A DNA stretch of 64,000 bases from Lachnospiraceae bacterium (GTDB taxonomy: Bacteria; Bacillota; Clostridia; Lachnospirales; Lachnospiraceae): the NCBI GenBank assembly GCA_017539565.1, contig JAFYCS010000107.1, positions 1 through 64,000 of the forward strand. The letters are read 5' to 3'. Numbering within the stretch: the first letter of the stretch is position 1; the number at the start of each line of letters is the position of its first letter. The position numbers and the translations under genes were made by a program. The notes beneath the pieces are model-generated. The model was not told the DNA's origin and made no database searches. It saw nothing but the letters and a program-made list of their open reading frames with translations. Below are positions 58,589 to 64,000 of the stretch, piece after piece.

Positions 58589-59599
58589 CTATTCCCGGGT
58601 TCTGCACTTTACGGAGTCCCTTATGATCAGCTTTCCGTTGACCACTCTCCGTCCGAAGTGTATGGCGGGATCGCTGATCTTGGCAGAGATCATTTTGTAA
58701 GCCTGATGTACCATTTCTTTCATATCGACACGGATCGTTGTAAGCTGCGGCGTGCAGAGACCTGAGTAGAGGTGATCATCATAGCCTACGACCGCGATAT
58801 CATCCGGAAGTTCGTAACCCAGTTCCTTGAGCTGATTGATCAGAATGCAGGCTATGTTGTCGCAGTTGCAGACAAAGGCATCCGGAGTGTCTTTCGGAAT
58901 GATCAGGGGTATATACCTTCCGCTTTCTTCCCTGTCTTCGATCAGATATTTCGGGTTGACCGGTATATCGTTTTCAATGAGTGCCCGCAGATAGCCGAGA
59001 TACCTGTCACATATACTGCTTGTCGCTTTGATGCTGCCAACAAAGGCGATCTTTCTGCAGCCGTTTTTGATCAGATATGAGGTTAAGAGATAACTGCCGT
59101 ACACATTGTCGGAGACAACGCTGTCTATATCATGGTTTGCGCTGTAGAAGTCCATGAAGATATAGGGAACGGGGCAGGATCTCAGCATTTCTATATAGGC
59201 ACTGCTTAATTGCCCCAGTATGATCATGCCGTCAACGGAACTGTCGCTGACCATATTGGGCGATATTAGCATGCGCTCGTTTTCTTCACTCAGGATCTCC
59301 ATGATACAGGTGTCATTGTGCAGATTTGTTTCCTGCAGTATACAGGTGTTCATCTGTGAATAGAAGGCATTTTCGGAGATGTATCTGGAGGCGATAAGGA
59401 CACCGATATTGTGTTTTGGCTCCGCTGTCTTTTTTGTCTGATTGCGTTTATAAACGTAGCCCAGCTCATCGGCTTTCTGCCTTATGGTTTCACGCATCCG
59501 CTCGCTGACGCCTTCTTTATCGGACAGAGCCTTGAATACGGATACCGCGCTGATACCCAGAGCATCGCCTATGGTTTTTAAAGTTACTTTTTTTGCCAT
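58589..59599 (-). CDS. LacI-family transcriptional regulator of the mannoside locus
   Basis: A 336-residue repressor. The N-terminal helix-turn-helix reads VTLKTIGDALGISAVSVFKA with hinge VYKRNQ, followed by a periplasmic-binding-protein-like sugar domain (GVLIASRYISEN, DGMIILGQ, AVVGYDDHLYSG). It is divergent from the GH2 gene, and its candidate operators occupy the shared 257-base gap; mannose, a mannoside or a phosphate of it is the likely inducer. AAAGGAAC lies before the ATG on the - strand. Confidence 0.9.
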   Translation of the reverse strand: MAKKVTLKTIGDALGISAVSVFKALSDKEGVSERMRETIRQKADELGYVYKRNQTKKTAEPKHNIGVLIASRYISENAFYSQMNTCILQETNLHNDTCIMEILSEENERMLISPNMVSDSSVDGMIILGQLSSAYIEMLRSCPVPYIFMDFYSANHDIDSVVSDNVYGSYLLTSYLIKNGCRKIAFVGSIKATSSICDRYLGYLRALIENDIPVNPKYLIEDREESGRYIPLIIPKDTPDAFVCNCDNIACILINQLKELGYELPDDIAVVGYDDHLYSGLCTPQLTTIRVDMKEMVHQAYKMISAKISDPAIHFGRRVVNGKLIIRDSVKCRTRE

Positions 59600-59710: not shown

Positions 59711-59813
59711 TTTTGTAAAACGATACAAAAATCCGCTAAAACGATAAAGTAATATTGACATGAATATTAGCTAATGATATATTAAGAAAACAAAATAATT
59801 AAGTAAAACGATA
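59711..59813 (+). promoter_or_regulatory. Three TAAAACGATA operator candidates around the GH2 promoter
   Basis: The 10-mer TAAAACGATA occurs at 59716-59725, 59737-59746 and 59804-59813, all in the same orientation. The first lies in a near-palindrome TTTTGTA-N6-TACAAAA (59711-59730). Two copies are upstream of the -35 and one is downstream of the -10, a layout suited to repressor binding or looping. Confidence 0.7.
59755..59783 (+). promoter_or_regulatory. Strong sigma-A promoter of the mannosidase operon
   Basis: TTGACA (59755-59760), exactly 17 bases, TATATT (59778-59783). The predicted start is near 59790, placing the third operator copy inside the early leader. Confidence 0.88.
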
Positions 59814-59856: not shown

Positions 59857-62310
59857 ATGAAAAGAATAATACCGGACAAAAACTGGAAGATGAGAAGAGT
59901 GGGCGAAGACCGGTTCTGCGAGGCGTCGGTACCGGGATCGGTCTATCAGGACCTGCTTAACGCGGGACGGATGGAGGATCCGTTCTGGAAAGACAATGAA
60001 ACAGAAGCCCTTAAACTGATGGATCACGATTATGAATACAGCACGACATTCATATGTGATGACGAAGCGGCGGATATGTCCGAACTGCTGCTTGTTTTTG
60101 AAGGACTGGACACTCTGGCTGATATATATATCAACGGCGGACATATAGCTTATGCCAACAATATGCACAGGACGTGGAAGTATCCGATAAAGCCGGTCGT
60201 AAAGAAGGGGGAAAATGAACTGAAGGTAGTTTTCCACTCACCTACTGCGTTTATAGAAAAAGCATTTAAGGAGGCGCCGACGCTTGGCACCGATGACGCG
60301 ATGAACGGCTTTGTTCATATAAGAAAAGCTCATTACATGTTTGGCTGGGACTGGGGTGCACATCTTCCCGATGCAGGTATCTGGCGTCCGGTGTATATAG
60401 AAGCGATCGACAGAGCACGGATCGAAAGCGTGGAGATCCGGCAGTATCATGAGAACGGAAGCGTGAGGCTTGAACTGATACCGGAGATCGCAGTCTTTGA
60501 TACGGCATACTCCGAAGAAGACGGAGTACTCTCTTTTGAAATAAAAGACCCTGACGGGCAGGTGATCAAAGAGGGCATTGTCTGTGAAGAGACAGTGATA
60601 GATGAGCCGAAACTCTGGTGGCCTAACGGTCTGGGTGAGCAGTATCTTTATACGGTGTCCGTTACGCTTCGTGACGGCGGCGGAAAAACACTTGATGAAT
60701 ACAGCAGGAGGATAGGCCTTCGTACGCTTACCATGGACAGGACCGTGGACCGCTGGGGTGAGAGATTCGCAAGCTGCGTCAACGGCGTAAACTTCTTCGC
60801 GATGGGTGCAGACTATATTCCCGAGGATCATCTTCTTGGCAGGGTAACAGAGGAAACAACGAGAGAGCTTTTGGAAAAGGCTGTGTTCGCAAACTTCAAT
60901 TCTATAAGAGTATGGGGCGGCGGGCATTATCCGGACGACTGGTTTTATGATCTGTGCGATGAGATGGGACTGGTGGTGTGGCAGGACTTTATGTTCGCCT
61001 GCGCTGTATATGATCTGACTCCCGAATTTGAAGAAAACATCACGGCAGAGATCATAGATAATCTTAAGAGGATCAGGCATCATGCATCTCTGGGGCTTAT
61101 GTGCGGAAACAACGAGATGGAGCAGTTTGTCAAAGAACGGACCTGGGTCAGCAAGGACAGTGAAGTCCGTGATTATATAATCATGTATGAAAGGATCATG
61201 CCCGCATTGATGAAGAAGTATGCTCCTCAGGTGTATTACTGGCCTGCCAGCCCTTCGTCGGGCGGATCCTTTGACGATCCCAGAGACGAGAACCGCGGTG
61301 ATGTCCATTACTGGGATGTATGGCACGGCAATGTTCCTTTTTCGGAATACAGAAAGCATTATTTCCGTTATCTGTCAGAATTCGGATTTCAGTCTTTCCC
61401 CGCGAAAAAGACCGTTGAGACATTTACGGATGATGAGAATGACATGAATATCTTTTCGTATATCATGGAAAGGCATCAGAGAAACGGCACCGCAAACGGA
61501 AAGATCATGAATTATATGCAGCAGACTTATAAGTATCCGACGAGTTTTGATACTGTGATATATGCTTCACAGCTGCTGCAGGCAGACGCTATCCGTTACG
61601 GCGTTGAGCATCTGAGAAGAAACAGGAATGATGACCGGTGCATGGGAGCTGTTTACTGGCAGTTCAATGACTGCTGGCCTGTTGCTTCATGGTCAAGCGT
61701 GGATTACTGTCAGCGGCTTAAAGCCCTCCATTATTTTGCAAGAAGATTTTTTGCACCGCTTATGATCTCCTGTGAGGAAGAGGGGATGCTGGGAAGCGGA
61801 CAGGAACTTGTAAGGCTTCCTTTTGAATTCAGAAAATCCATAAGACTCAATGTTACAAATGAAAGCCGCGATGAAAAACAGGTGAGAGTGGAATGGGAGA
61901 TAAGAGATGCTTCGGCGCGGGTGCTTCGGAGTGAAGCTGCGGATATTTCCGTACCGTCCTTATCAAGTGTATGGCTGGACAGGGTTGAACTGCCTGATAT
62001 AGCGATATATGATGAGTATGTAAGTTACAGGGCTGTTATCGAAGGAAAGACAGTATCGGAAGGAACCGTTATCTTCTCATATCCCAAGTATTTCAGATAT
62101 GAAGATCCGGAATTGAGATATGAGATCGACGGCGATATGATCACGGTATATGCTTCGAAATATGCCAGGGGCGTAGAGATCCGGAATGATAATGAAGATC
62201 TGATCCTTGATGATAATTATTTCGATCTGAACGGCGATTCGAAAACAGTCAGGATCCTCAGCGGAAATGCGGATAAGCTGAGACTCAGAAGTGTGTTTGA
62301 TATCAGATAA
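59857..62310 (+). CDS. GH2 beta-mannosidase
   Basis: An 817-residue glycosidase releasing mannose from the non-reducing end of beta-mannosides. Visible features: the N-terminal jelly-roll with LVFEGLDTLADIYINGGHIA, a beta-sandwich, and a TIM barrel with acid/base Glu420 in CGNNEME and nucleophile Glu508 in SEFGFQSFP; a C-terminal sandwich completes it. No signal peptide, so it acts on imported oligosaccharides. The short reading opening KNWKMRRVGEDRFCEASVPG is typical. The fusion gene follows after 16 bases. Confidence 0.92.
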   Translation: MKRIIPDKNWKMRRVGEDRFCEASVPGSVYQDLLNAGRMEDPFWKDNETEALKLMDHDYEYSTTFICDDEAADMSELLLVFEGLDTLADIYINGGHIAYANNMHRTWKYPIKPVVKKGENELKVVFHSPTAFIEKAFKEAPTLGTDDAMNGFVHIRKAHYMFGWDWGAHLPDAGIWRPVYIEAIDRARIESVEIRQYHENGSVRLELIPEIAVFDTAYSEEDGVLSFEIKDPDGQVIKEGIVCEETVIDEPKLWWPNGLGEQYLYTVSVTLRDGGGKTLDEYSRRIGLRTLTMDRTVDRWGERFASCVNGVNFFAMGADYIPEDHLLGRVTEETTRELLEKAVFANFNSIRVWGGGHYPDDWFYDLCDEMGLVVWQDFMFACAVYDLTPEFEENITAEIIDNLKRIRHHASLGLMCGNNEMEQFVKERTWVSKDSEVRDYIIMYERIMPALMKKYAPQVYYWPASPSSGGSFDDPRDENRGDVHYWDVWHGNVPFSEYRKHYFRYLSEFGFQSFPAKKTVETFTDDENDMNIFSYIMERHQRNGTANGKIMNYMQQTYKYPTSFDTVIYASQLLQADAIRYGVEHLRRNRNDDRCMGAVYWQFNDCWPVASWSSVDYCQRLKALHYFARRFFAPLMISCEEEGMLGSGQELVRLPFEFRKSIRLNVTNESRDEKQVRVEWEIRDASARVLRSEAADISVPSLSSVWLDRVELPDIAIYDEYVSYRAVIEGKTVSEGTVIFSYPKYFRYEDPELRYEIDGDMITVYASKYARGVEIRNDNEDLILDDNYFDLNGDSKTVRILSGNADKLRLRSVFDIR

Positions 62311-62326: not shown

Positions 62327-64000
62327 ATGGACAGACGATTTGTGATCGACACCGGAGAGAATAAGGAATACATGAAAGCTTTGGGAATGGAACTGCTTGA
62401 GTTTGGAAAGCTGTTTCCCTCGCAGAGCGGAGCGTCATATTACCTTGGCGACGACGGGAAGCCCTGGACTGACAGGCCCAGGGAGACCTGGATCACCTGC
62501 AGGATGGCTCATGTGTACAGTATGGCTGCTATGGCCGGATTTCCGGAAGGAAGAGAGCTGGCGGCTGCTGCGATAAGAGGATTATCCGGTGAGCTTAAGG
62601 ATAAGAATGCAGGCGGATGGTATGCGGGGATTACAGCTGACGGACAGGCGCTGCCGGATAAGCAGTGTTATGCTCACGCATTTGTGATCCTGGCTTCAAG
62701 CTCCGCTGTCCTTGCCGGTATTGAAGGCGCTGAAGAACTGCTGGAAGAGGCGCTTAAAGTATATGATGAAAAGTTCTGGGATGAGAACGAGGGACTGGCT
62801 GTCGATACCTGGGATACCGGATTTACCGTGCTTGATGACTACCGCGGATTAAATGCCAATATGCATACGGTAGAAGCTTTCCTTGCTGCAGCAGACTGCC
62901 TTTCCGATGAGAAGTACAGACAAAGAGCAGGAAGGATCATAGACAGAGTGATATCCTGGGCGGCTGATAATAGGTGGAGGATCCCGGAGCATTTCACCAA
63001 AAACTGGGAAGCGGATCTGGACTATAATAAGGATAAGCCCGATGATCCGTTTAAGCCCTACGGTGCAACACCGGGACACGGAATAGAATGGTCCAGACTG
63101 ATATCACAGTGGGCGATGTCGACGGCTTTGACAAAAGAGCGCCGGGCACATTATACAGATGCGGCGGTGAAGCTTTATGAGCGGGCTGTTGAAGACGCCT
63201 GGAATGCAGACGGCGCCTGCGGACTGGTTTATACTACGGACTGGGACGGAAAAGCCGTGGTGCACGACAGAATGCACTGGACGCTTGCGGAAGCGATCAA
63301 CACTTCGGCGGTGCTGTACAGGATTACAAATGAAAAAAAATATGCAGAGCATTATTCCATGTTTTCAGAGTATCTCGAGGATGTGGTACATGATCATGTT
63401 CATGGATCATGGTTCCATCAGCTGGACAGAAATAATAAACTGCTGGGTACGGTATGGCCCGGGAAAAGCGATATCTATCATGCTTTTCAGGCTACACAGA
63501 TCCCTTATCTGGATGTGGACAGATCCATTGCATATTCTATGAGCAGGAAAGATGTGCTGGCGCTTGGAGAATTATTGATCGATTTTACCTGTAACGGAGA
63601 GTCGGAACAGGGAAATATGCTTTTTGAGGCAAACCCCGGCGGAGCGCCGTGCAATGTTCTTGCCATGCTGACCAGGCTTGGAAAAAGAACCGGATTTATA
63701 GGTAAAGTCGGCGATGATCAGTTTGGAAGGCTGCTGCGCTCTACCCTGGATGAAGTGGGAATTGACAGCAGATATCTGATGACTGACGAAGACGTGCCGA
63801 CTACGCTTGCTTTTGTGCATAAGCTGGCGGATGGTGACAGGGAGTTTTCCTTCTACAGAAAACCGGGCGCGGATATGATGCTGGGTGTGGACGATATTAA
63901 GGAAAGTATGTTTAATACAAAGATATTCCACTTTGGCACATTGTCGATGACACATGAAAATGTTCGCAGTGCGACTATGAAGGCAGTGGAGATCGCAAAG
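62327..64000 (+). CDS. Fusion of mannose-isomerase-type AGE domain and PfkB sugar kinase (partial)
   Basis: One open frame of 558 codons runs from ATG 62327 (GGGGGT ribosome site) to the window end without a stop. Residues 1-404 form an AGE-family barrel of the mannose isomerase/YihS type: KQCYAHAFVILASSS, His180, PYGATPGHGIEW (His251, Glu254) and His385 in DIYHAF, close to YihS His176, His248, Glu251 and His383. From Met405 a PfkB kinase begins: VLALGELLIDF, then NPGGAPCNVLAMLTRLG and IGKVGDDQFG. The C-terminal half with the catalytic DTxGAGD site lies beyond the window. Predicted reactions: mannose to fructose, then phosphorylation. Confidence 0.85.
   Translation, partial: MDRRFVIDTGENKEYMKALGMELLEFGKLFPSQSGASYYLGDDGKPWTDRPRETWITCRMAHVYSMAAMAGFPEGRELAAAAIRGLSGELKDKNAGGWYAGITADGQALPDKQCYAHAFVILASSSAVLAGIEGAEELLEEALKVYDEKFWDENEGLAVDTWDTGFTVLDDYRGLNANMHTVEAFLAAADCLSDEKYRQRAGRIIDRVISWAADNRWRIPEHFTKNWEADLDYNKDKPDDPFKPYGATPGHGIEWSRLISQWAMSTALTKERRAHYTDAAVKLYERAVEDAWNADGACGLVYTTDWDGKAVVHDRMHWTLAEAINTSAVLYRITNEKKYAEHYSMFSEYLEDVVHDHVHGSWFHQLDRNNKLLGTVWPGKSDIYHAFQATQIPYLDVDRSIAYSMSRKDVLALGELLIDFTCNGESEQGNMLFEANPGGAPCNVLAMLTRLGKRTGFIGKVGDDQFGRLLRSTLDEVGIDSRYLMTDEDVPTTLAFVHKLADGDREFSFYRKPGADMMLGVDDIKESMFNTKIFHFGTLSMTHENVRSATMKAVEIAK

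Follow-up and report, generated by a model that had tools for sequence, protein, structure and literature searches.

An isomerase-kinase fusion gene conserved in Lachnospiraceae and its probable role in mannose utilization

Two enzymes of the sulfo-EMP pathway, YihS and YihV, act one after the other and come from the same two protein families as the fusion described here, according to an excerpt of the published work (PMC9594981). As described there, they are encoded by separate genes, unlike the fusion, and the kinase belongs to another PfkB branch and makes a 1-phosphate. The second described relative is the fructokinase of Vibrio cholerae (VcFRK, 5ey7), for which an excerpt of PMC6240065 indicates that R176 and A46 bear on phosphorylation at O6 rather than O1 and that the E110Q and E205Q mutations strongly cut activity. 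Roseburia species are reported, in an excerpt of PMC7478625, to be without the mannose isomerase that KEGG shows in its pathway. Adjacent AGE and kinase genes on the same strand are found in Lachnospiraceae, where they often follow a GH2 beta-mannosidase gene, as well as in Pseudoalteromonas and Embleya; they belong to the same two families as the fusion but give two polypeptides, with stop codons between the genes. In the locus reported here, both domains are encoded by one gene.

The window, a stretch of 64,000 nucleotides of Lachnospiraceae DNA, covers all but the last 517 bases of a contig of 64517 bases (C86), in a draft genome of 3.37 Mb in 120 contigs with a completeness of 99.75%. The features of the locus are collected in Table 1. 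The frame of the fused gene is open to the last base of the window and ends on the same contig, giving a protein of 722 amino acids. Its ATG is preceded by a good ribosome site (predicted anti-SD pairing of -9.7 kcal/mol), and a longer start at a GTG would be possible and is needless. The preliminary description had read a continuous frame, with an AGE domain (residues 1-404) followed by a PfkB kinase, and had suggested looking beyond position 64000 for the DTxGAGD motif and the stop codon. Both were found there, the former as DATGAGDT, and both domains were complete by Pfam: PF07221 matched with 369.6 bits (cut-off 23.4) over profile positions 3-347 of 347, so that the AGE domain is essentially full length, and PF00294 matched residues 408-712 with 189.7 bits (cut-off 25.8) over positions 2-301 of 302, likewise essentially full length.

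Table 1. Features of the fused gene and its surroundings (positions in the window).
Feature	Position	Strand	Remarks
LacI-family regulator, divergent	58589..59599	-	74% relative in the corresponding place at fused locus L041
Three copies of TAAAACGATA between the LacI and GH2 genes	59716-59725, 59737-59746, 59804-59813	+	Candidate operator
GH2 beta-mannosidase	59857..62310	+	Stop 16 nt upstream of ATG 62327; closest solved structures are beta-mannosidases
Fused AGE-PfkB gene, part in the window (residues 1-558 of 722)	62327..64000	+	Same contig completes it to the stop at 64493-64495
AGE domain (YihS/mannose-isomerase type), residues 37-389	62435..63493	+	Pfam PF07221; NCBIfam NF051846, 395.7 bits
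Junction with near-absent linker, from the AGE 'SIA' motif to the kinase 'GELL'	63524..63577	+	33 nt between the motifs; Met405 is ATG 63539, without a ribosome site before it
Fructokinase-like PfkB half from Met405 (domain to residue 712)	63539..64000 (in the window)	+	Pfam PF00294; closest solved structures are fructokinases

The GH2 gene directly upstream had been taken for a mannosidase, and the comparison with solved structures supports this. The beta-mannosidase 2vjx scored 469.7 bits, entries named just 'glycoside hydrolase family 2' scored 215 bits, and the first structure named for another activity scored 63.9 bits. We infer from the sequence and its surroundings that the fused gene probably encodes a bifunctional mannose isomerase/fructokinase that originated by one deletion and lies downstream of a beta-mannosidase. 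The GH2 enzyme would release mannose, the N-terminal AGE domain would convert mannose into fructose, and the C-terminal PfkB domain would use ATP to phosphorylate the fructose at O6, so that fructose-6-phosphate would enter glycolysis. Having both activities on one chain would be likely to bring two benefits: expression of the two at a constant 1:1 ratio, and a pull by the ATP-consuming step on the reversible isomerisation.

The best matches of the AGE half among solved structures are YihS proteins (295 bits), one of them named as a sulfoquinovose isomerase, and it shares 148 of 374 aligned residues (39.6%) with E. coli YihS. The preliminary description had stated that the catalytic His and Glu positions match those of YihS-type mannose isomerases almost to the residue. 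W51, R55, N172, H176, H248, E251, E320 and H383 of YihS, which are taken to be catalytic or substrate-binding, are all identical in the fusion with a shift of 2 to 4 residues, these eight having been chosen with the YihS alignment in view. Of 19 YihS positions compared altogether, 12 are identical and seven differ (G110, F114, R238, G244, R315, Q362 and Q379), none of these belonging to the eight. The earlier statement holds for the presumed active site. The fusion shares with YihS and the D-mannose isomerases a full-length domain of the AGE superfamily and the same eight presumed active-site residues, but differs from them in that the C-terminal end of the AGE domain is shortened and joined directly to the kinase. 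Among the isomerase and epimerase profiles listed, NF051846 (D-mannose isomerase) gave the best score, which is below the equivalog cut-off of 600 bits.

Since the AGE family also includes epimerases, and YihS itself also 2-epimerises its own substrate (PMC9594981, in excerpt), the AGE half could instead be a 2-epimerase, for example for mannose and glucose, or an enzyme for another aldose such as lyxose, with the kinase acting on a different product. We consider this improbable. The epimerase profiles scored 35.4 and 37.1 bits against the AGE half, compared with 395.7 bits for the D-mannose isomerase profile. The contexts of unfused relatives bear on the question from both sides. We surveyed 33 unfused AGE loci, which were the best-scoring ones of a larger number of matches and not a random sample, for up to 5 kb on either side as far as the contig permitted. 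The contexts varied: neither PfkB nor GH2 was found within 5 kb at 19 of the 33 loci. At the other 14, a PfkB gene was found on the same strand within that distance, together with GH2 in six cases; the 40% coverage filter drops a GH2 fragment at one further locus (G056). Three gene orders were seen: GH2-AGE-PfkB; PfkB-AGE, in some cases interrupted by a HAD phosphatase gene; and PfkB-GH2-AGE, in which the kinase is a divergent one. Among the neighbouring kinases tested, the fructokinase profile was the best in all four, each below its cut-off and two from the divergent group, and a fructokinase needs a ketose, which counts against an epimerase as its partner. A mannose isomerase remains our preferred assignment for the AGE half.

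The kinase half was also assigned to the fructokinase type, as the preliminary description had proposed. The best kinase profile listed was NF006957 (fructokinase) with 215 bits, below its equivalog cut-off of 450 bits. Like VcFRK, the fusion has a full-length PfkB domain by profile, and A46, G109, N174, R176 and D266 of VcFRK are kept; A440 corresponds to A46, R571 to R176, and D663 to D266, the catalytic Asp of the GAGD motif. The fusion differs from VcFRK in its overall sequence (32.4% identity), in the isomerase at its N-terminus, and at some acidic and other positions (H108 to D, E110 to D, E205 to N and T261 to A). Because the best structural matches of the AGE half are YihS proteins and because YihS and YihV come from the same two families as the fusion, the pair could be thought to serve sulfoglycolysis, with the AGE half as sulfoquinovose isomerase, the PfkB half as sulfofructose kinase, and sulfofructose-1-phosphate as the product. 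We rejected this reading, which is very improbable: the kinase half is far closer to the V. cholerae fructokinase (166.2 bits) than to the sulfofructose kinase YihV (44.1 bits), the fructokinase residues R176 and A46 are kept, and the neighbouring gene is that of a beta-mannosidase. In addition, PF01791, the family to which the aldolase of sulfoglycolysis belongs, was found in none of the 20 proteins scanned, which comprised cassette genes and neighbours from several loci.

The same order of domains was then sought in other genomes, as had been suggested. A scan of genome contigs confirmed eight loci, three of which carry the full fusion: the Lachnospiraceae MAG Tb.RUG.345 (L039, protein 99.7% identical to that of the window), Tb.RUG.225 (L040, 87%) and Butyrivibrio sp. 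RUI181 (L041, 82%). The L040 sequence is identical to a contig of genome G011 and represents one and the same contig. Including the genome of the window, the fusion is thus present in four assemblies and three sequence-distinct lineages, and the isolate names suggest that these bacteria are probably from the rumen. Pfam finds the two domains of the window's protein in the fusions of L040 and L041 as well, and in each fused record no stop codon interrupts the frame at the junction. The fused sequences form one clade in the AGE tree (46 sequences, support 100/100) and in the kinase tree (22 sequences, 100/99), so within the sequences compared the fusion is conserved and arose once. Purifying selection acts on both halves: across all three lineage pairs, dN/dS is 0.049-0.090 in the AGE half and 0.054-0.120 in the kinase half. 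Since the synonymous divergence between the fused lineages ranges from about 0.75 to saturation (dS was saturated in the two pairs with L041) and dN/dS is low, the joined form is not recent and both halves have been kept. Although all three fused records that carry a name come from metagenomes and the fusion was not encountered in any isolate, we dismiss an assembly error or a recent functionless read-through as having next to no probability, because four assemblies of three lineages carry the fusion with the same 33-nt junction at this level of divergence, selection acts on both halves, and both domain trees group the fused sequences.

The fusion was further sought in 35 genomes of the genus with an E cut-off of 1e-60, where two were fused (G000 and G011), and in larger, overlapping samples of 397 genomes of the family (1e-60), 392 of the order (1e-150), 398 of the phylum (1e-120) and 341 of the class (1e-75). 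In these four larger searches, at most two to three candidates were scored per genome, and among the matches listed G000 alone covers both domains in a frame free of stops; with such stringent cut-offs and so few candidates per genome, distant fusions could escape detection. Two candidates were rejected. G659, which was listed with an open frame of 794 amino acids, has four stop codons between AGE and kinase, and a single tblastn piece across both domains in Embleya turned out to be two separate genes. A PfkB match in a 546-amino-acid open frame at G1388:C151:8099-9055 may represent a further kinase fusion, or else an artefact of the listing as in G659.

Unfused relatives from the same family (Lachnospiraceae by the named records) often have AGE and PfkB as separate neighbours. 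We compared seven unfused AGE-then-PfkB pairs (L047, L048, L049, L050, L051, L061 and L062) with the fused genes. All seven contain a stop codon between AGE and kinase, the distance from SIA to GELL is 62-189 nt in them compared with 33 nt in the three fused lineages, and GH2 is directly upstream in six, in one of which (G056) the contig ends within the gene and leaves a fragment. Ribosome sites were compared as well, and the unfused kinases are mostly preceded by a clear one. The anti-SD pairing before Met405 is +0.4, +0.4 and +0.9 kcal/mol in the three fused lineages (+0.4 in the window), meaning that there is no SD, while the best start of the unfused kinases gave -3.7 to -11.7 in 13 of 13. 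The same best-start search in the fused genes gave -4.6, -3.1 and +0.9, with GTG codons in two lineages and none in L041; since these values overlap those of the two weakest unfused kinases (-3.7 and -3.9), the SD contrast is clear at Met405 and not absolute. A small amount of free kinase may be made from the fused gene. Its start at Met405 is unlikely, as no SD is found there in any of the three lineages, and the other starts are weak and not common to all three.

The fusion is most simply explained by a single deletion, of some 30 nt or more, in a row of GH2, AGE and PfkB genes that already existed; it would have taken the AGE stop codon, the last part of the AGE gene and the kinase's ribosome site. 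In the AGE tree, support is weaker for the nearest unfused sequences, which are those of G056 (83/44) and G223 (84/90), and the nearest unfused relative of the fused clade was not resolved in the kinase tree. Neither tree unites the unfused GH2-AGE-PfkB sequences in a single clade (5 and 4 changes), suggesting that this arrangement may have originated or been transferred repeatedly.

Upstream of the GH2 gene, three exact copies of TAAAACGATA were found, compared with 0.12 expected in the window and none elsewhere in it. Since the pattern was picked after being seen in this stretch, we regard it as a candidate operator and no more. The intergenic regions beside LacI in the window and in L041 share no palindrome, those of L041 being different. 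The row of genes at L041 consists of the divergent LacI gene, an ABC solute-binding protein, two permeases, a SASA-type esterase, GH2 and the fusion. The other two fused loci lack an intact GH2 neighbour. In L040/G011 there is none beside the fused gene, the sole match at E<=1e-40 being a 46% paralogue elsewhere; in L039 (9498-9981), the 3' end of GH2 alone is left upstream of the fusion, with a premature stop and following a terminator-like hairpin, and the similarity to the window begins within GH2. The broken gene could reflect strain decay or a contig join. With GH2 absent in one case and broken in the other, the fused gene has been kept without an intact GH2 neighbour. Further upstream in L039 are genes for a solute-binding protein, UxuA and a member of the mannitol dehydrogenase family.

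The fusion need not be the sole route of mannose in these bacteria. A catalytic model of phosphomannose isomerase had matches in five of eight genomes, that of the window included, and a C-terminal model of 48 positions had matches in none of the eight; the genome of the window also has a GH130 match. Other mannose routes are possible given the phosphomannose-isomerase-type and GH130 matches.

The two-step route itself is already known; what looks new is its single-chain form. In Pseudoalteromonas xiamenensis (L095:861-7054), the genes for an AGE isomerase and a carbohydrate kinase overlap by 4 nt and lie near a gene annotated as GH92, with a sugar MFS transporter gene between. As the separate pair is present in Pseudoalteromonas and Embleya, the fusion is a novel combination of domains that serves a route already known. 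The preliminary description knew of no biochemical account of such a fusion, and in line with this, none was found among the matches listed in the openly licensed PMC literature, which is weak evidence of absence; the excerpts of PMC7478625, PMC13278490, PMC9594981 and PMC12608037 likewise describe no AGE-PfkB fusion.

Whether the joint does more than hold the two activities together is a separate point. With low probability, the near-linker-free joint may pass fructose on to the kinase, as the preliminary description had proposed, or may hold the reversible isomerase far from equilibrium. If this were true, the use of mannose would be effectively one-way and no free fructose would build up in the cell. 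Separate genes with a long gap, separate genes with a short gap and the single chain form a natural series in which the benefit of a metabolic fusion can be tested, since such a series could separate the effects of expression ratio, equilibrium pull and channelling. If the predicted activity is true, this mannose route of the family would be missed by annotation that seeks just mannose kinases and phosphomannose isomerase, and a single chain with both activities could be a handy catalyst for converting mannose into fructose-6-phosphate.

Several other arrangements were observed around other AGE genes. At L053:9459-11441 (G208), a GDPD domain (glycerophosphodiester phosphodiesterase) is in frame with a 68%-identical AGE domain in a protein of 661 amino acids. 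This gene directly follows a PfkB gene, so the isomerase occurs here in a second fusion of another kind beside a kinase gene. At L058:8529-9380 and in L065, a gene for a Cof-type HAD phosphatase lies between PfkB and AGE, and these cassettes also encode a ROK regulator together with a protein of the periplasmic-binding type. At L069:3100-4179, a gene for D-mannonate dehydratase (UxuA) comes directly after an unfused AGE gene.
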